DNA of 64,000 bases from Collinsella sp. An307 (GTDB lineage Bacteria > Actinomycetota > Coriobacteriia > Coriobacteriales > Coriobacteriaceae), in the NCBI RefSeq assembly GCF_002161805.1, contig NZ_NFIP01000006.1:62001-126000 (forward strand), in the 5' to 3' direction. Made by a program: the position numbers and the translations under genes. The notes under the pieces were generated by a model, which made no database searches, had not been told where the DNA came from, and saw only the letters and a program-made list of their open reading frames with translations. Positions 1-48,409 of the stretch are shown one piece after another (positions within the stretch are counted from its first letter, which is position 1; each line of letters starts with the position of its first letter).

Positions 1-1140
1 GAGCTGATCGTAGAAGACGGAGGTGTCGGTGTTGGTGCCCTCCTCGGTCTTAAGACCGGTCGCCTTCATGATCGGCTGCATGTAGCTCGAGAACGGGAAG
101 TTCGGCACGCAGGTGTTACCCGAGGACTGGTAGCCCGTGGCCTCGTAGACGCGCGGGTCCTGGATCTGCGAGTAGCAGCGCACGGGGCAGCCGTGGCAGC
201 CGGCCATCTTGACGGTGTACTTCTCCGCCTCGGGGCCGAGGTCCTTGGTGGACTTCATGCAGCGGTAGCCCATGGTGTTGGGCTCGAAGGGCTTGGGCTC
301 GCCGGTCTCGATGGGGCCGCCCTCGGCAGCTGCCCAGTAGAGGCCCTTGCGAGCGGTCCAACGCGAGCCGGAGTCGTAGTACTCGGCCCAGGACTGCTGG
401 GTGCTCGGCACGACGTGGTTGTTGTTGGAGCCGAGGACCTGGGCGATCATGTAGTCGGAGAGGTCGGCGACCATCTGCGGGTCGGCAACGTTCACGGCCT
501 TGGTGCCCTTGACGACAACGGCCTTGCACTTCTTGGAGCCAAGGACCGCGCCGAGGCCCGCGCCCGCGGAGTGGCTACGGGTGTTCATGACGCACGCGTA
601 GGGGAGCAGGTTCTCACCGGCAGGGCCGATGGTGGCAACGCAAGCCTCGAGGCCGTGCTTCTTGCAGAGAGCCTCGGTGGTCTCGCGGGTGCCCTTGCCC
701 CAAACGGCGGAGGCGTCCTCGATCGAGATCTTGTCGTCGTCGATCAGGATGTAGACGGGCTTGTCGGAAGCGCCCTCGATGATCAGGCCGTCATGGCCGG
801 AGTACTTGAGGGTGGCACCGAGCTGGCCGCCGCAGTGAGCGTCGACAACGAGGTAGTCCGTGGTGAACGTGGAGAGCGTCGCCCACGTGGAGCGGCCGCC
901 CAGAGGCACACCCGAACCGGTGAGAGGGCCGACGGCGAGGACAGCCTTGTTCTCGGGCGCGTCCCACGCGGTGCCGGCGGGCACCTCGTCATACATAATC
1001 TTGTTGGCGAAGCCCATGCCGCCGATGTAATCGGCCTGCATGGCCTCGTCGGACTCGACGGAGATGTCTCCCGTCGTGAGGTTGACGCGCGCGATCTGGC
1101 CCGCCCAACCGTAAGAACCATAGGTGGCAGTATCAGCCAT
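1..1140 (-). CDS. ydhV: YdhV-like aldehyde ferredoxin oxidoreductase (partial, C-terminus beyond window)
   Basis: The first 380 residues of a tungsten/molybdenum-pterin oxidoreductase of the AOR family are present; the frame stays open to base 1, so the rest lies outside the window. It starts with MADTATYGSYGW, and an AOR N-terminal beta region follows with a VGGMGF-like motif (YIGGMGF, 38-44) and GPLTGSG at 71-77. The CxxCxxxC cluster ligands are C315, C318 and C322 (CHGCPVRC). Stretches such as NNNHVVPST and SRWTARKGL match what I recall of E. coli YdhV more than the classical archaeal AORs. The start at 1140 has GGAG upstream. The Tat-exported ferredoxin gene ends 16 bp upstream, so the two are probably co-transcribed and form an electron-transfer pair. 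The substrate is unknown; the E. coli homologue's physiological substrate is also unsettled. Confidence 0.93.
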   Translation of the reverse strand, partial: MADTATYGSYGWAGQIARVNLTTGDISVESDEAMQADYIGGMGFANKIMYDEVPAGTAWDAPENKAVLAVGPLTGSGVPLGGRSTWATLSTFTTDYLVVDAHCGGQLGATLKYSGHDGLIIEGASDKPVYILIDDDKISIEDASAVWGKGTRETTEALCKKHGLEACVATIGPAGENLLPYACVMNTRSHSAGAGLGAVLGSKKCKAVVVKGTKAVNVADPQMVADLSDYMIAQVLGSNNNHVVPSTQQSWAEYYDSGSRWTARKGLYWAAAEGGPIETGEPKPFEPNTMGYRCMKSTKDLGPEAEKYTVKMAGCHGCPVRCYSQIQDPRVYEATGYQSSGNTCVPNFPFSSYMQPIMKATGLKTEEGTNTDTSVFYDQL

Positions 1141-1156
1141 TGCGTATCTCCAATCT

Positions 1157-1879
1157 TTAAGCGACCTTGCCGCCGCCGACGAAGTCCTGCTGCTCGCCTA
1201 CGAGCGGGTACGGATTCTCCTGACGGGTCGGGCCAGACGAATGGCTGACATCCTCCCACTCGATGAGCTCGATGGCGCCGTTGGGGCACTGCGCTGCGCA
1301 GCGGCCGCAGGCGACGCACTTGCGGGACTTGCCGGTGACGGTGTTGATCACGGGCATGTCGTACGGGCAGGCGGTCACGCAAGCGCCGCAGCCCACGCAC
1401 TTGTCCTCGTCAACCACGCGAACGCCGTTGTCGTTGGTGGTGATGGCGCCGTGCGGGCAGGCGGTCTGGCAAAGGGCCGTCTTGCACATGTAGCACGCGC
1501 GGATGGTCCACTCCATGGAGTAGAAGATACCGTCGCCCGAGCCGAGCTCCTTGCCGTACTGGTAACCGTCGTGCACGTGAATACGCGCAGCGGCCGGCTG
1601 GCTCACGCCGTCGAGGGCGAGCGTGCAGGCCATCTCGCAGCGCTGGCATCCGGTGCAACGGGCACGGTTCACCTTGAGCACGTGGGACGGCGTGGCGTAG
1701 TAGTCCAGGTCGCCCATGGAGCTCGTCGGCGCGGCGGCCGCCTCCTCCGGGAGCAGGCCGAGCGCCACCATGCTCGCCACGAACGCACCCGAGACCTTCA
1801 CAAACCCGCGACGGGTGAAGAAGGATTCGAGGCGATCCGCGCCCGAGCCCACCAGCTCTGTGGTGGTGTTCTCTTTCAT
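1157..1879 (-). CDS. ydhY: Tat-exported 4Fe-4S ferredoxin, YdhY-like
   Basis: A 240-aa polyferredoxin. The N-terminus carries a twin-arginine signal (FTRRGFVKVSG near residue 21) followed by a hydrophobic stretch ending in EEAAAA, so export by Tat is expected. After it come four cysteine clusters: CTGCQRCEMAC, CYMCKTALCQTAC, CVGCGACVTAC and CVACGRCAAQC. This four-cluster arrangement and the closing IELIEWEDV match the E. coli YdhY/DmsB-like electron-transfer subunits. It is the first gene of a two-gene operon with the AOR gene and probably shuttles electrons to or from it. ATG at 1879 has GGGAGGG at a good distance. No membrane anchor subunit is visible in the window. Confidence 0.92.
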   Translation of the reverse strand: MKENTTTELVGSGADRLESFFTRRGFVKVSGAFVASMVALGLLPEEAAAAPTSSMGDLDYYATPSHVLKVNRARCTGCQRCEMACTLALDGVSQPAAARIHVHDGYQYGKELGSGDGIFYSMEWTIRACYMCKTALCQTACPHGAITTNDNGVRVVDEDKCVGCGACVTACPYDMPVINTVTGKSRKCVACGRCAAQCPNGAIELIEWEDVSHSSGPTRQENPYPLVGEQQDFVGGGKVA

Positions 1880-2051
1880 AGTTCCCTCCCCTACTGGTTA
1901 CGGCGGTTCCCCGCCGTGGTTCGATATGACGTGCGCACCTGGCGACGGTACGCATTTCGCCGCATATCATTGTCACCTTTGTTTGTTCGCAAGCCTCACC
2001 TGCTTCCGGGTAATTTGCGCCTTTTAGTGCATTTTCAGGCACAACAGGCTG

Positions 2052-2068
2052 TCACCTGTTTGAGGTGA
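2052..2068. promoter_or_regulatory. 17-bp palindrome upstream of ydhY (copy 1)
   Basis: TCACCTGTTTGAGGTGA: 6-bp arms (TCACCT/AGGTGA) around a 5-nt centre, about 170 bp upstream of the ferredoxin start. The identical 17-mer occurs in opposite orientation at 3703-3719 beside the LuxR gene. Read towards ydhY and towards luxR, both copies give TCACCTCAAACAGGTGA. Further TCACCT half-sites lie nearer the ferredoxin gene (near 1974 and 2000). A likely operator of the neighbouring LuxR regulator; this is inference. Confidence 0.6.
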
Positions 2069-2094
2069 CCTGTCGCAAAACGGCATATAACTGT

Positions 2095-2161
2095 CACGTT
2101 TGGGGACGGGGTCGTTTTGTGCACGACGATCGCACGTTTGGGGACGGGGTTGTTTCGTGCA
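2095..2161. repeat. Pair of 29-bp direct repeats
   Basis: Two 29-bp copies at 2095-2123 and 2133-2161, 38 bp apart and differing at 2 positions. The core is CACGTTTGGGGACGGGGT, followed by GTTT and GTGCA. They lie between the NifU-like gene and the ferredoxin promoter. GGGGACGGGG motifs of this kind are known to me near REP-associated Y1 tyrosine transposases, but no such gene is present here. Confidence 0.75.
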
Positions 2162-2167
2162 GCCCGG

Positions 2168-2758
2168 CTAAATCTCGCCCGCCTCGCGGAGCTCTTGGTC
2201 CACACGGCTATCGCGCAGCGAGCAGTTCTCAGTAATCATGCACGGGACCGAAAGCCGCGTGCAGGGAAGCACCTCATCCAGCTCCGCGATCGAGAACTTG
2301 CGGACGCGCAGATAATAATCGCCCACCAGGGCGCGCACCGCTTCGAGCGCAAAGACGAGCGTGTAGTTGCGGCTCCCCGGCAGAGGACCGGTGAGCTCCT
2401 CAATGTCCTCGCGGGTGATGGCGAGCGCCTCGTCAACGGTCTTGCCGCGCAAAAGCGTTGCGAGTGCCGTGGCGCACGCGATGGCGGCAAGGCATCCATG
2501 GCTGCGGAAGCCCACCTCGCCAAACGTCCCCGTCTCCGGATCAATCTGGGCAAAGAGCTGCATCTGCACCGTGCCGCGCTTCTCCTTGCCAACGCTGCAG
2601 AAGACGTTGGCCCCATCCGGGATGCCACCGTTGGCAGCATCGGCAATCAGGTCGATGGTCTTCTTGTCGTATTCCGAGATGGGCGCGTCCTTCTCAATCT
2701 GGTACATATCGGGCGTACGCAGAAACGGCGTGTCCTCGGTCAGGCGGTTCTTGGGCAT
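2168..2758 (-). CDS. NifU/IscU-like iron-sulfur cluster assembly scaffold protein
   Basis: A 196-aa protein resembling the NifU N-terminal scaffold fold as found in anaerobes. Visible features are FCSVGKEKRG near residue 53, and the helix SHGCLAAIACATALATLL with two cysteines followed by KTVDEALAITREDIEEL. Two more cysteines lie in the C-terminal part (PCTRLSVPC, ENCSLRD). Scaffolds of this family hold nascent Fe-S clusters. Its position between the Fe-S oxidoreductase operon and the LuxR regulator suggests that it serves that oxidoreductase. The start at 2758 is preceded by AGGAGAAC. Family call is fairly firm; the link to the AOR is inferred from position. Confidence 0.78.
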   Translation of the reverse strand: MPKNRLTEDTPFLRTPDMYQIEKDAPISEYDKKTIDLIADAANGGIPDGANVFCSVGKEKRGTVQMQLFAQIDPETGTFGEVGFRSHGCLAAIACATALATLLRGKTVDEALAITREDIEELTGPLPGSRNYTLVFALEAVRALVGDYYLRVRKFSIAELDEVLPCTRLSVPCMITENCSLRDSRVDQELREAGEI

Positions 2759-2835
2759 GGGTTCTCCTCAATACATCTCGGCGCTATAGGCCCAGGTGGC
2801 ATACGGCATATACGGACTCGCACCGCAAACGCGCA

Positions 2836-3630
2836 TTACGGATTGCGCTGCTGCTCCACCCCGTACCACTCCGCAAGCGAGCGCGCCTGCGCCTCGGACA
2901 GGTAGATATCCGAGTAATAGTAAGTGCGGCCGTTGCTCGCATGGGTCTCGTGGATGTCCTTGAACGAGCCCGCCTCTTGCACCTTAGCAAAGACCTCGCG
3001 CGTGTGCGCGGGTGACCACAGATAGGGCGGATTCATAAGGCTATCGATACCCAAGGGGCGTGGGTAGGTGCTCGACTCGGTGCGCACCACGTCGACAAAC
3101 GTGGCAACATCGTTGTCCTCCGCCGTGTGGTAGAGAGCCTTCGCGAAACTGTGTGAGAGCAGCGCCGCCGAATAGAGGTAGGTCGCCTTCTTGCCCTGCA
3201 GGATGGCGATGTCTACAACCGAGCGCTCGGGAAGCGGGTCGTCTTCGTTCAGCTCGCGGCCCTCAAGCTCAACGTCAAGGGGCTTGGGCGCAGCAAGGCG
3301 GCCCATGACGGGCTTTGCTTCGGCGTGCTCATGGGTATCGAGATAGTCCATGAACTTTTGCTCGAACTCCTTGGCGGTCATCCCCTCAGGCGCGATGGCG
3401 CGCTTGCGCCACCGACCCGTTGTGGTGAGCTTTCCCTCGTAGGAACGCTGACGCACGTCGGTAAGCGCTGCATCGAGAGCGCGAATCCACGCGTTCTTGG
3501 CGTGAATCGCCGCGCGTTCCTCGTCCGTCAGGGCTTCCGCCTCTTGATTGTTCGCCTCAGCCGCAACCTCCACGGCCGCGTCCTCAACAGCGGTCGCCTC
3601 AGCCGGCGCAATATCGTTTCTCTCCTCCAT
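2836..3630 (-). CDS. Conserved hypothetical protein in the AOR locus
   Basis: A 264-aa, acidic, soluble protein that I cannot assign. No signal peptide, membrane segment or cysteine cluster is seen. The first 40 residues are Ala/Glu-rich low complexity. The folded part has two distinctive stretches: TYPRPLGIDSLMNPPYLWS near residue 186 and a Tyr-rich region (RTYYYSDIYLSEAQARSL) near 235. ATG at 3630 has AAGGGG upstream. It runs codirectionally into the NifU-like gene (78 bp gap), and its promoter region is shared with the divergent LuxR gene. By position it could fill the role of YdhW, the uncharacterised protein of the E. coli ydh operon, but I could not verify similarity. Confidence 0.7.
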   Translation of the reverse strand: MEERNDIAPAEATAVEDAAVEVAAEANNQEAEALTDEERAAIHAKNAWIRALDAALTDVRQRSYEGKLTTTGRWRKRAIAPEGMTAKEFEQKFMDYLDTHEHAEAKPVMGRLAAPKPLDVELEGRELNEDDPLPERSVVDIAILQGKKATYLYSAALLSHSFAKALYHTAEDNDVATFVDVVRTESSTYPRPLGIDSLMNPPYLWSPAHTREVFAKVQEAGSFKDIHETHASNGRTYYYSDIYLSEAQARSLAEWYGVEQQRNP

Positions 3631-3702
3631 GGGGCCCCTTCACTCATGGGTTACCTGCGTCGATTCGCATGCATCACAGTTTAGTACAAGGTATACTTCA
3701 TA

Positions 3703-3719
3703 TCACCTCAAACAGGTGA
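3703..3719. promoter_or_regulatory. 17-bp palindrome between divergent genes (copy 2)
   Basis: TCACCTCAAACAGGTGA is the exact reverse complement of the site at 2052-2068. It lies 35 bp before the luxR GTG start and 72 bp before the start of the divergent gene at 3630. An autoregulatory operator for the LuxR protein is the simplest reading (inference). Confidence 0.6.
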
Positions 3720-3754
3720 CCCCAATCAGGGTACCTTCGCAGTAAGGATGAGAC

Positions 3755-5308
3755 GTGGCAGCAGAACCCGTTGACAACGCTTCGAGTGAAGACGCCAAGC
3801 GCGTGCTCCTACCTGCTGTTTTGGGCCTTGCATTTGCCGCCGCCTCGTTTGGCCTCACCGCCCAAGGGGGCGCCCTTGCCGGCGTGTCACCCGCCTTTGA
3901 GGGCACGGCAACGCTTGTCACCTGTGCGATGGCAGCCGCTCTCATGCTGAGCGCCTGGCATCACGGGCGCCTAGCCAAGCGCGCTGTCTTTCTCATCACC
4001 TTTGTCGCCATCCATATAGCCGGCATCGGTGCGCTCGGGCTTGTCTTTCTGGACATCACGCGTCCCGCACAGGCTGCCCTGTGGGCCGTGGCGCTCGAGG
4101 CCGTGAGCGGATGCGGCAGCGCCCTGCTTATGTTCTATTGGCTCCGCAAGCTCCGCGGCACCTCGGCAACCACCGTATCCGCCGTGTCGTTTGCCGCGCT
4201 CGCGCTGGGCACCGCCGTGACATTTGTGGCAGGTATTGCGGGACCTCTCGCCTGCCATGTTGCGGCCTTTGCGCTCTCGTTTGCCCAGTTTGCCACCACT
4301 CGCGCATCACGCCGTTTCGAGGCACCGGGCGGCGCCTTCCCCGCTCACCCCGAGATGTACTTTGGCACGAGCGAGGAGCGCTTCTCGGACCGCGGCTACC
4401 TCGCTGCCGCACTTGCTGGCGTATGCGGCGTTTCCCTTGCGGCCGGTATGGCCAACGCTTTTGCCATCTCGGTCGAGGGATCGGCGGGCCTTGAGTTTGT
4501 TTCCCGCCTCATCACCCTCGTGCTGGTGTGCGCGGCCGCGGCGGCGGTCATGCGCCGCTCGCTCGAGACGCAGGAGCGCTCGTTTGTCGCCAACATTTGG
4601 ATTGCCCTTTGCCTGCTGTTGAGCATCGGCGCGGTCTTCCTGTCGTTCAGCGGGCCAGCCGCCTACATCGGCGGCGCCGTTGATGCCGCTGTCCTGCTTC
4701 TTCTACAGGCACATATCTGGTATCTCTCGGTGGCGTTCTCGAGCTACGGCAAGCTCGACCCCTACATCTACGCCGCAGGCTCCTGGATCGCGCTCCACGC
4801 GTTCCACGTTACGGGCACGGCCCTCGGCCATCTTATTGCCGGCGCCACGCCGCAAAACCCCGCGCCCGCCATCGCCCTCATGGGTCTTTGCGCGGTAGGC
4901 GCCACTCAGATTGTGTTCTCACAGCTGCTCGCCGACCCTGAGCGCACGCCCCTGCCCGGCACCGCCGCTCAGGCAGCCGCGGCCCAGATCCTCCCGCAAA
5001 ACGCGCCGAGCATGCTCGCTCCTGCCTCGACAGAAGCGCCTTCCTTGGGCACGGCGGCAGACGCCGGCGCGCCCTCTGATGTGCACATCGCCACCTCGGT
5101 CATCGCCATGGGGCAGCGTTTTGGCCTCACCGGCCGCGAAATCGAGGTTCTCACCCTCTACGCCCTCGGCCACACGCAAGCGCGCGTGAGCGAGGAGCTC
5201 CACCTCTCGCAAAACACCGTACACACCCACATCAAGCGCATCTACGACAAGTGCGACTTGCACTCGCGCCAGGAGATTCTCGATTACCTGAATGAATACG
5301 GCGGCTAG
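3755..5308 (+). CDS. LuxR-family transcriptional regulator with ~12-helix membrane sensor
   Basis: A 517-aa protein. Hydrophobic helices fill residues ~15-400, an Ala/Pro-rich linker follows (~400-440), and a C-terminal LuxR-type helix-turn-helix ends the chain (GLTGREIEVLTLYALGHTQ ... LHLSQNTVHTHIKRIYDK, ~448-510). Membrane-sensor LuxR proteins are strongly expanded in Coriobacteriia and often sit beside respiratory oxidoreductase genes. The start is GTG at 3755 with AAGGA 6-8 nt upstream; the nearby ATG at 3749 is in another frame and stops at once. It is divergent from the unknown gene at 2836-3630 and shares with the ydhY promoter an identical 17-bp palindrome. It probably regulates the ydhYV locus in response to an unknown ligand. 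Confidence 0.9.
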   Translation: MAAEPVDNASSEDAKRVLLPAVLGLAFAAASFGLTAQGGALAGVSPAFEGTATLVTCAMAAALMLSAWHHGRLAKRAVFLITFVAIHIAGIGALGLVFLDITRPAQAALWAVALEAVSGCGSALLMFYWLRKLRGTSATTVSAVSFAALALGTAVTFVAGIAGPLACHVAAFALSFAQFATTRASRRFEAPGGAFPAHPEMYFGTSEERFSDRGYLAAALAGVCGVSLAAGMANAFAISVEGSAGLEFVSRLITLVLVCAAAAAVMRRSLETQERSFVANIWIALCLLLSIGAVFLSFSGPAAYIGGAVDAAVLLLLQAHIWYLSVAFSSYGKLDPYIYAAGSWIALHAFHVTGTALGHLIAGATPQNPAPAIALMGLCAVGATQIVFSQLLADPERTPLPGTAAQAAAAQILPQNAPSMLAPASTEAPSLGTAADAGAPSDVHIATSVIAMGQRFGLTGREIEVLTLYALGHTQARVSEELHLSQNTVHTHIKRIYDKCDLHSRQEILDYLNEYGG

Positions 5309-10456: not shown

Positions 10457-11446
10457 TTAGACCTCCTGAGAGGACGGGGCGGACTGATCGGAATCGCGGG
10501 TCGCGTCTGCTGCGGGGGCAGCATTTGAACCTACGACCTCCGGGTTATGAGCCCGGCGAACATCGGGTGCGGCGGCAGGGGCAACGTCTGCCGCGGGGGC
10601 GCTGAGCTTGGCGCCGGCGGCGCGCAGGCGCTCGAGGGCCTCGTCGGCGGCGGCGCGCTCACGCCAAGCATCCTGCTCCTCAAGGCGCTCCTTCAGCTCC
10701 TCCACCTCTGCAGCGTCTGAATTGATGCGAAGCGCTATGCGCGTGAGCGCAAACGCCACGAGAAGCATGCCAAAAAGCCCCAGCAAAAACGGGATGAGCA
10801 TCATGGGCGGCAGACCGCTGTCGGTGCGAAAGACCACCGGGTGAATCGAGCTCGGCACCAGGCGCGTGATGAGAAACGAGATGGGCGCGTCCACAAAGGC
10901 CACGATGCCAAACACGGCAGAGAAGCGCGCGCGGCGCTCGGGATCCTCGATTGCATTACGCAGGATAAAGTAGCCGATAACGAGCAGCATGAGGATGAAG
11001 TACGTGGTGAGGCGCGGCTCCCAAACCCACCAGACGCCCCACTCGAACCGGGTCCAAAGGTCGCCCGAGATCATGGTTGCTGCCACGAAGACGAGCGTGA
11101 CCTCCATGGCGGTTTTGGACCACACGTCAAAGCGGCGCTCCCCCGTCATGAGGAAGCGAACGGCCCAGAACGCCGCAAACGCCATGACGGCAAACGACGC
11201 CACGGCAACGGGAACGTGCAGGTAGAAGATCTTTTGGCTAAGCAGCAGCTTGGTCGTAATCTGCTGACCGGCAATGACCACCGGCTCGGAAAGCTCGGCA
11301 CCTTGCACCATGGGCGCCAACGTGAACGTCCACACGACGTCGATGAGCACGAGCAGCACCCCGAGCGCGAGCGCCGCGGGCACAAGCCTCTCGAGCGCGC
11401 CACCCGCGCGGCCGGTCCGGTCGGTTTGAAGCGTGTTGTGCGCCAC
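10457..11446 (-). CDS. ccmC: Cytochrome c biogenesis protein CcmC (heme handling), with unusual C-terminal tail
   Basis: About 329 aa with six membrane helices in residues ~15-235. The tryptophan-rich heme motif WGVWWVWEPRLT is present, as are the flanking conserved histidines (FYLHVPVA and SSIHPVVF). CcmC attaches heme to CcmE outside the membrane. GTG 11446 has AGAGG upstream and is preferred over ATG 11479, which lacks a ribosome site. The protein is ~90 residues longer than usual. The extra tail is a Glu/Arg coiled segment, then Ala/Pro-rich sequence that includes RRAHNPEVVGSN, translated from a copy of the 3' half of tRNA-fMet. Confidence 0.92.
   Translation of the reverse strand: MAHNTLQTDRTGRAGGALERLVPAALALGVLLVLIDVVWTFTLAPMVQGAELSEPVVIAGQQITTKLLLSQKIFYLHVPVAVASFAVMAFAAFWAVRFLMTGERRFDVWSKTAMEVTLVFVAATMISGDLWTRFEWGVWWVWEPRLTTYFILMLLVIGYFILRNAIEDPERRARFSAVFGIVAFVDAPISFLITRLVPSSIHPVVFRTDSGLPPMMLIPFLLGLFGMLLVAFALTRIALRINSDAAEVEELKERLEEQDAWRERAAADEALERLRAAGAKLSAPAADVAPAAAPDVRRAHNPEVVGSNAAPAADATRDSDQSAPSSQEV
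10512..10559 (-). repeat. Partial tRNA-fMet copy inside ccmC
   Basis: 48 bp match the real tRNA-fMet at 10053-10100 with one mismatch (position 10522). The segment covers the anticodon stem-loop, variable region, T-arm and most of the 3' acceptor strand, in the same orientation as the tRNA. It lacks the D-arm and 5' acceptor, so it is not a functional tRNA, and it is read in frame as residues ~296-312 of CcmC. Confidence 0.9.
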
Positions 11447-47083: not shown

Positions 47084-48409
47084 CTAGATGTGACCCTGCT
47101 CCTCGGGATCAAAGTCCACGCCCTCGTCCGCACTCGTCGCATCAAACGACGCATCGAACGCATCGTCCAGATCGGTGCCGAGCGGGTCGATGTCAATCTC
47201 GTGCAGCTCTTCCTCAAGCGACGCCTCGTTGCGCGTCGCACGCAGGCGGTCCGCCTGCGCAACCGACATGACGCGCGTGTTGGAGATGACGCCGTTTAGC
47301 ATCACAAACGGCCGCTTAAAGGCAGAATGAATCGCGCGCACGGCAACGGTAACGAGCCATACGCCGTAGGCGCTCATAAGCACGATGGTGATGCCCTCGG
47401 CGCCGATCGAGACCTCGTCACCAAGCAGCATAAGCGGGCTCGAGGACGACGGAAAGAGCGTCGCCACCCACGTGGGCAGCAGCAAAAACGCCCAAAAGAG
47501 CAAGCCGTAGCGCACCACGTACGACCACCAGCGCGCGCTCGAACCGTCCGGGCGCACCACGCGCAGGCGCACGATCGCGTGACCCACGGTCTGGCCGCGT
47601 GTGACGATGGGAACGAGCATAAAGGTAATGCCGGTTGCCGCCATAAGGAGGCCGATGTGGCCGGGCGCGGTATCGTCCGCCCCGGGGAAGGCAAACCGCA
47701 GCACCGCAAGCACGAGCGCGCAGACCACCATATCGATCACAAACGCCACAAGGCGGCGCGAGAACGAGGTGTGCGCGGCGCCGCGCTCGAGGGCGCGCTC
47801 CTCCACCTCGTCGATACTCGGCAGGAAGTGGCAAAGCGGAATCGCCACAAGAGAGCCCAGCACGGTGCCCGTCGTGTTGGTGATGAGGTCGTCCACATCA
47901 AACAGGCGATACGGATGCGCGTACAGACCAAAAAGGCCCGTCACCTGCGAGATCTCAAAAAAGAGCGAAAGCCCAAAGCCCGCAAGCAGCGCCTGCCACC
48001 ACGGCCGGTCAAACAGGTAGCGCAAGTACACGCCAAACGGCAGCGTGAGCAGCACGTTAAAGAGCGTGGTGTAGACCGTTGGGTTCTTGAGGAAGGCGAG
48101 CCACGACGCCGGCGAGGTGACGTCCAGCCGCACGAGCGCCGGCGCCATGATGTCGAGCGCGTAGAAGGGGTTGAGCTGCGGGTGCGCGGCGTTGGCGTAA
48201 AACGCGGTGCGGTCCGCCGGCAGCGGCAAGATCACCATAAAGTACGCGCAGATGAGGTAGAAGATGAGCGAAAAGACGAGAAACGTCTTCCAGACCGAGA
48301 TGCTGCCAAAACGGCGGTACTGGTAGATGGCGTAAGGCAGCGAGAGGACAGCAGCGATAAGTGGAAAGAGCAGCGCCGCCACCACAACGTTGTTGGCGTA
48401 CGAACTCAC
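47084..48409 (-). CDS. VanZ-RDD fusion membrane protein
   Basis: A 441-aa membrane protein. Residues ~1-200 are a VanZ-like domain (helices with FNVLLTLPFGVYLRYLF, FEISQVTGLF and YRLFDVDDLITNTTGTVLG, the VanZ signature). Residues ~220-370 are an RDD domain (SRRLVAFVIDMVVC, RGQTVGHAIVRLRVVRPDG). The last ~60 residues form an acidic cytoplasmic tail. GTG 48409 has GAGGG upstream and lies 3 bp after the HAD gene stop, so the two are coupled. VanZ proteins relate to glycopeptide tolerance, but such fusions are widespread in Actinobacteria and Firmicutes without a known function. Confidence 0.87.
   Translation of the reverse strand: MSSYANNVVVAALLFPLIAAVLSLPYAIYQYRRFGSISVWKTFLVFSLIFYLICAYFMVILPLPADRTAFYANAAHPQLNPFYALDIMAPALVRLDVTSPASWLAFLKNPTVYTTLFNVLLTLPFGVYLRYLFDRPWWQALLAGFGLSLFFEISQVTGLFGLYAHPYRLFDVDDLITNTTGTVLGSLVAIPLCHFLPSIDEVEERALERGAAHTSFSRRLVAFVIDMVVCALVLAVLRFAFPGADDTAPGHIGLLMAATGITFMLVPIVTRGQTVGHAIVRLRVVRPDGSSARWWSYVVRYGLLFWAFLLLPTWVATLFPSSSSPLMLLGDEVSIGAEGITIVLMSAYGVWLVTVAVRAIHSAFKRPFVMLNGVISNTRVMSVAQADRLRATRNEASLEEELHEIDIDPLGTDLDDAFDASFDATSADEGVDFDPEEQGHI

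Follow-up and report, generated by a model that had tools for sequence, protein, structure and literature searches.

A 17-bp palindrome in the promoter gaps of a Collinsella ydh locus is very probably bound by a membrane-embedded LuxR regulator that would control a metal-enzyme operon

Which protein reads the 17-bp palindrome that recurs in two promoter gaps of a ydh locus of Collinsella sp. An307, and which genes does it serve? The locus lies at the start of the window, that is, the whole stretch of 64,000 nucleotides analysed here. Its genes are transcribed from the minus strand in the order ydhW, a NifU/IscU-like gene, ydhY, ydhV and a cytochrome c gene, and a gene for a LuxR-type regulator with 12 transmembrane helices (12-TM) is divergent from ydhW. 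Homologues of YdhV, YdhY and YdhW are encoded together, as in a YdhYVWXUT-type class V WOR locus, the YdhW and YdhY matches lying under the NCBIfam cut-offs. The named close relatives of the locus are Collinsella and Enorma contigs. Its features are the following.

1..1140, minus strand: 5' part of ydhV, aldehyde ferredoxin oxidoreductase family (AFOR_N, AFOR_C), continuing past the window edge
L008 6885-9140: the whole of ydhV, followed by the cytochrome c gene at L008 6183-6863 (Cytochrom_c3_2)
1157..1879, minus strand: ydhY, 4Fe-4S ferredoxin-like subunit (NF007382, E 2.3e-51, under the curated cut-off; many Fer4 models)
1969..1974, minus strand: predicted -10 box of ydhY, GACAAT (conserved spacing; putative promoter role)
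1996..2012, minus strand: putative proximal operator of ydhY-ydhV, degenerate TACCCGgaagcAGGTGA (17.8 bits; about -42 from the predicted start)
2052..2068, minus strand: putative distal operator of ydhY-ydhV (exact match, 24.1 bits; about -98 from the predicted start)
2168..2758, minus strand: NifU/IscU-like Fe-S scaffold protein (PF01592, E 1.1e-15)
2836..3630, minus strand: ydhW homologue (NF007411, E 1.4e-33, under the curated cut-off)
3678..3697, no strand assigned: conserved 20-bp block with two outward-facing -10-like hexamers (pattern match; putative promoter role)
3683-3678, minus strand: TAAACT, -10-like, toward ydhW, within the 20-bp block
3692-3697, plus strand: TATACT, -10-like, toward luxR, within the 20-bp block
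3703..3719, no strand assigned: putative operator in the divergent luxR/ydhW gap (exact match, 24.1 bits)
3717..3733, no strand assigned: weak candidate site TGACCCCAATCAGGGTA on the luxR side (13.4 bits; conservation examined among near-identical loci)
3755..5308, plus strand: 12-TM LuxR-type regulator, MFS-like sensor domain plus NarL/GerE-type HTH (GerE, PF00196)

In three related loci, the NifU-like and YdhW matches were found in one open frame (L165 4522-6372, L167 4645-6372 and L168 5323-6990), possibly a NifU-YdhW fusion in some Eggerthellaceae.

The palindrome, TCACCTGTTTGAGGTGA, has the arms TCACCT and AGGTGA flanking 5 bp. A search of the window retrieved it exactly at 2052-2068 (plus strand) and inverted at 3703-3719 (minus strand), as claimed in an earlier note on this DNA, which was also correct in that both copies are oriented the same way relative to ydhY and luxR. 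Since the sequence is near-palindromic and its 5-bp centre varies between species, this orientation carries little meaning. Nor is the mere repetition of a 17-mer remarkable: about 0.7 identical pairs are expected in 64 kb at 63% GC from base composition alone, which makes the repeat weak evidence. What is remarkable in the 17-mer is its palindromy, its position in two promoter gaps and its conservation. Two further sites are absent from the earlier note, namely a third, weaker copy at 1996-2012 (TCACCTGCTTCCGGGTA, 17.8 bits) and a weak fourth site at 3717-3733 (13.4 bits), which abuts the one at 3703-3719. Both copies that the note placed in promoter gaps are exact, but the putative operator set has at least three members, and the divergent ydhW in the second gap had been overlooked. 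Because of its place in this divergent gap, the site at 3703-3719 can serve ydhW as well as luxR.

With up to three mismatches allowed, the window contains one further match (47893-47909, three mismatches), where 0.06 were expected by shuffling. The search of the rest of the genome that the earlier note had proposed covered 2,215,898 bases on 17 contigs and returned two exact copies, none with one or two mismatches and five with three. The 17-mer is not frequent at random intergenic sites, either in this genome or in the 65 family genomes searched. Elsewhere in the genome of the window, two weaker matches were scored: C1:22205, with 17.0 bits, coincides with the beginning of an AraC-family frame, and C3:76142 has 16.6 bits.

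The pattern TCACCT-N5-AGGTGA was retrieved at 18 sites in 11 of the 65 family genomes, 14 of them in gaps of the ydh locus and four elsewhere; as a control, the reversed pattern matched in one of the 65 genomes. The four matches off the ydh locus (genomes G008, G035, G056 and G062) were rejected as extra regulon members, about eight being expected by chance in about 143 Mb. They lie between apparently convergent genes, upstream of a hydrogenase gene, inside a reading frame and within a run of unrecognised genes, the gene roles having been judged by eye except for the hydrogenase. The match near the hydrogenase gene is TCACCTtgaagAGGTGA (L084 6761-6777); it precedes the gene for the small subunit of a NiFe hydrogenase by about 220 bp, and the family genome concerned carries a ydh locus as well.

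As an inverted repeat around a 5-bp loop that follows the nifU stop at a distance of about 100 bp, the palindrome might also be taken for an RNA element, either a leader hairpin or a terminator after nifU. Yet there is no T run at the site, no terminator was called there and no Rfam match was retrieved for it, and the sites are found upstream of conserved -10-like boxes. In the set of 40 family sites, pairing is constant at positions 1, 4 and 5 of the arms but is seen at positions 2 and 3 in only 14 and 18 sites, respectively. The arms thus vary without pairing, each half-site on its own, which points to a DNA site for a protein dimer and not to an RNA hairpin. On account of these unpaired changes and of the missing terminator call and Rfam match, the hairpin or terminator was rejected as highly implausible. 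Between the nifU-like stop and the distal operator there is also a tandem repeat of TTTGGGGACGGGG, at 2099-2111 and 2137-2149, with two copies in the window.

Within the family set of 65 genomes, YdhW is present in 30, and every one of the corresponding 30 ydh loci (29 besides the one described here) was examined. Comparing the locus with these 29 and with 34 from other families brings out a conserved operator, T(CA/AC)CCT-N5-AGG(TG/GT)A. Among the family loci, half-sites switch between TCACCT and TACCCT; CC and GG are constant, in contrast to the drifting 5 bp at the centre. LuxR adjoins ydhW in 26 of the 30 loci and is absent from four. A site of at least 16.9 bits was detected in all 26 loci with LuxR and in none of the four without it (best scores 3.3-3.7 bits), a contrast that is not independent, as the 26 LuxR-bearing loci were the training set of the matrix. 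In three of the four LuxR-less genomes, no match to LuxR was retrieved anywhere, and the fourth has a weak HTH match only. These four loci, from one genus and with YdhW 48-49% identical, look like one lineage, in which LuxR may have been lost just once.

In the luxR/ydhW gap, 22 of the 26 family loci with LuxR contain a site of at least 14 bits. The gap has no recognisable site, whether absent or decayed, in the remaining loci (L072, L074, L075 and L076), where the 20-bp block is present; control of ydhW would therefore not be universal. In the ydhY gap, among 22 family loci with both LuxR and ydhY, 19 contain both sites, two the distal site only and one the proximal site only. A further conserved GCAGGTA, possibly an extra half-site, is found 7-8 bp before the distal operator upstream of ydhY in L065, L067, L069, L074 and L075.

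An independent test was made in other families, where 34 ydh loci of Eggerthellaceae and others were scored with the matrix derived from the 40 sites of the family. Twenty of these non-family loci were taken from 102 genomes with YdhW (28 of them of the same family), and 14 came from 32 named loci, the other 18 being omitted (13 family loci and four contigs already included, and one truncated). In the scanned zone of 450 bp upstream of the locus genes, 27 of the 33 LuxR-bearing loci score at least 14 bits, the threshold used, several of the outgroup loci being close relatives of one another. In 680 trials with shuffled sequence of 2,600 bp, the 99th percentile was 11.9 bits and the maximum 15.8. 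The remaining six of the 33 do not reach 14 bits within this zone (L105, L113, L151, L161, L167 and L168). Just beyond that zone, sites of 15.1 and 16.5 bits were found in L105 and L151, respectively, and L113 is a second, rearranged copy with a better LuxR match elsewhere in its genome. The best score in L095, the sole outgroup locus without LuxR and of a lineage separate from the four family loci, is 2.0 bits. The outgroup consensus is T(A/C)CCCTC-TTT-GAGGG(T/G)A. As judged by the matrix, sites of one kind have been retained next to these genes in two bacterial families.

It is conceivable that the palindrome is the site of another regulator, such as a global anaerobic or metal regulator, and that LuxR keeps it company through a shared gene set. 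Partridge et al. in 2008 reportedly placed the E. coli ydhYVWXUT operon under FNR, NarL and NarP, so several factors may act at a ydh locus. However, a global regulator should have other sites, and the best match to the searched pattern elsewhere in the genome scores 17.0 bits against 24.1 at the locus; moreover, enzyme loci without LuxR are without the site. We consider such a regulator very unlikely. The co-occurrence of site and LuxR across two families, their joint absence and half-sites of NarL/GerE type, suited to the HTH, favour the proposal of the earlier note, an operator of LuxR, over the other explanations. Very probably, then, this membrane-embedded regulator docks at the palindrome, from which it would control the metal-enzyme operon. 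For the whole reading, in which the palindrome would be the operator of the adjacent 12-TM LuxR and LuxR would activate the ydhW and ydhY operons, we estimate a probability of about 0.87.

In a Pfam scan, the regulator has a C-terminal LuxR-type HTH (GerE, PF00196, residues 458-511, E 5.6e-13), and the only other match is a weak Sigma70_r4_2. Quorum-sensing LuxR binds an inverted repeat, the 20-bp lux box, through a GerE-type HTH. Unlike that system, the one described here has a 17-bp site and an MFS-like membrane domain, and no autoinducer-binding domain was detected in the Pfam scan. In a structure model built from 36 aligned relatives (mean pLDDT 86.5, pTM 0.77), 12 long membrane helices precede residue 392 and the HTH spans 442-515; alignment hydropathy likewise gives 12 stretches, among them a short, adjacent pair. 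As two six-helix bundles, the modelled membrane part can be superposed on MFS transporters of solved structure (Z 25-28, 9-10% identity), including VAChT 8zmr (Z 27.5, rmsd 4.0, 347 residues aligned), SotB 6kki (Z 26.6, rmsd 3.7, 331 residues aligned) and OxlT (Z 26.2, rmsd 4.0, 345 residues aligned). No Pfam MFS match was retrieved in LuxR at 0.001, so the MFS likeness is one of fold only. On the strength of the model, 12-TM LuxR regulators may be transporter-derived sensors.

The nearest solved relatives of the HTH are GerE and the DNA-binding domains of response regulators, including NarL. Like the sites, the HTH is nearly invariant in the family. In the outgroup, it differs at recognition-helix positions 487, 489 and 491, alongside the shift of the half-site from TCACCT to TACCCT; the two changes may be taken as a parallel only. 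Among the other GerE proteins of the same genome, one of the four loci examined matched the HTH profile.

Conserved -10-like boxes accompany the sites in both gaps. Downstream of the ydhW-side site, 15 loci have the 20-bp block AGTATACCTTGTACTA(A/C)ACT at 14-15 bp from the centre of the site, and two have it at 26-27 bp; by pattern, it was detected in 21 of the 30 family loci and in none of the four LuxR-less loci. The positions of its hexamers, TATACT toward luxR and TA(A/C)ACT toward ydhW, imply that the site would be close to -40 of ydhW and would cover the predicted start region of luxR. In the ydhY gap, a centre-to-centre distance of 54-57 bp separates the two sites in 19 of the 22 family loci with LuxR and ydhY. 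The centre of the proximal site lies 30-31 bp before an nACAAT box (once GAAAAT) in 18 loci, a spacing that would place this site near -42 of ydhY. A consensus promoter scan called no promoter at the ydh gaps, and we infer the promoter assignments of the -10-like boxes. The spacing of the sites to these boxes fits activation from about -40 at both ydhW and ydhY.

The overlap between the site and the predicted luxR start region downstream of TATACT, itself judged from positions, would also suit a LuxR that binds but mainly represses itself and ydhW until a ligand releases it. We regard repression of this kind as unlikely, given that sites centred at about -40 to -42 of ydhW and ydhY are well placed for activation, and that three relatives, DadR, HcdR and CadR, are activators, the level of DadR rising with inducer, in the available part of PMC9734109. 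Of the targets, ydhY-ydhV, named in the earlier note, and the divergent ydhW-nifU operon are better supported than luxR itself, the predicted start of which the site would overlap.

If LuxR is an activator, its MFS-like membrane domain would sense a ligand, upon which the membrane-held HTH pair would bind the sites. As a dimer of NarL/GerE type, the HTH would read inverted 7-bp half-sites (TCACCTN or TACCCTN) placed 3 bp apart, at two sites upstream of ydhY-ydhV-cytochrome (about -98 and -42) and at one in the luxR/ydhW gap (about -40 for ydhW-nifU). Once bound, it would switch on both operons, that of ydhW and that of ydhY, through contact with RNA polymerase at their -35 regions. With the site in the luxR/ydhW gap occupied, luxR, whose predicted start this site overlaps, would be dampened or tuned. 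In this scheme we infer the binding of LuxR, the activation, the ligand and the effect on luxR.

The regulator resembles the 10-12-TM LuxR family, as far as the available part of its description goes (Dong et al. 2022, PMC9734109): it has 12 membrane helices and a C-terminal LuxR HTH, it adjoins a redox metalloenzyme operon (here with AFOR_N/AFOR_C, of Mo-enzyme type), and it is found in Collinsella relatives and Eggerthellaceae. DadR, HcdR and CadR are described there as substrate-dependent activators of the same architecture, with a mechanism that is called unclear. The available part of that paper gives no palindrome, inverted repeat or DNA-binding motif for the three, and MFS is unmentioned in its main text. 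The present regulator differs from them in its target, the ydhV/ydhY (class V WOR) locus, which is not named in that part, and in that an operator is now proposed. Membrane LuxR regulators are also mentioned in PMC11585353 and PMC12771579, in the parts available without a DNA site. A literature search with open-access coverage, and few subscription papers or bioRxiv preprints, found no DNA site for any 10-12-TM LuxR; as far as the open-access literature shows, the putative operator, deduced purely from sequence, would be the first proposed for this family.

YdhV/YdhY is a class V tungsten/molybdenum oxidoreductase, and its carriers include Coriobacteria, Collinsella among them, according to the available part of PMC13328260. 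This part assigns class V WOR no physiological role, and LuxR is unmentioned in the main text; the present account differs from it in defining a likely regulator and operator. In gut Coriobacteriia, dozens of membrane LuxRs switch on drug- and diet-converting enzymes, and a defined operator offers a testable binding target. The operator pair with the ydhY promoter would make a short reporter to screen for the substrate of YdhV.

A comparable operator is that of NarL, engineered in a 7-2-7 form as TACCCCTAAAGGGGTA (PMC4549865, in the part available). As there, inverted heptamers of the form TACCC.../...GGGTA would be read by a GerE/NarL-type HTH dimer, and TACCC-like heptamer ends are found in the outgroup consensus. 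However, the gap is 3 bp and not 2, so the operator, with 17 bp (7-3-7) instead of 16, is not a 7-2-7 site. It also differs in that the half-site may be TCACCT and that its proposed reader is a one-component protein of the membrane, whereas NarL is a response regulator that acts when phosphorylated. The locus could become a worked case of a membrane sensor and the NarL response regulator reading nearly the same DNA for the same enzyme.

Similar sites were sought upstream of other 12-TM LuxRs. For 44 regulators of G124, a count of upstream palindromes irrespective of sequence gave no clear excess at any spacing. Upstream of 53 paralogues, T.AC-N9-GT.A was found 11 times (1.8 expected) and TCAC-N9-GTGA seven times (0.5 expected), both patterns having been chosen after a partial view of the G124 data. 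In 70 paralogues from two other genera, TCAC-N9-GTGA occurs four times against 0.3 expected (P 0.0003, uncorrected). For the same 70, a broader pattern fixed beforehand occurs five times against 2.7 expected (P 0.14), and general 17-bp dyads, 94 against 88.6 expected, are in no clear excess. These counts are only a suggestion of a general operator code, for a minority of paralogues. A bolder and rather doubtful proposal is that an MFS-fold transceptor, while held in the membrane, reads DNA directly by forming a NarL-like dimer on 7-3-7 operators, each of the dozens of 12-TM LuxRs of gut Coriobacteriia having its own variant of one 17-bp design, with outer TCAC...GTGA or TACC...GGTA and inner bases for identity. 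If true, regulons, and hence enzyme substrates, could be read off sequence. Upstream of a second 12-TM LuxR that adjoins the ydh locus in L102, the sequence TCACCTgttccACGTGA is found at 10518-10534, a hint that paralogues use similar 17-bp sites.
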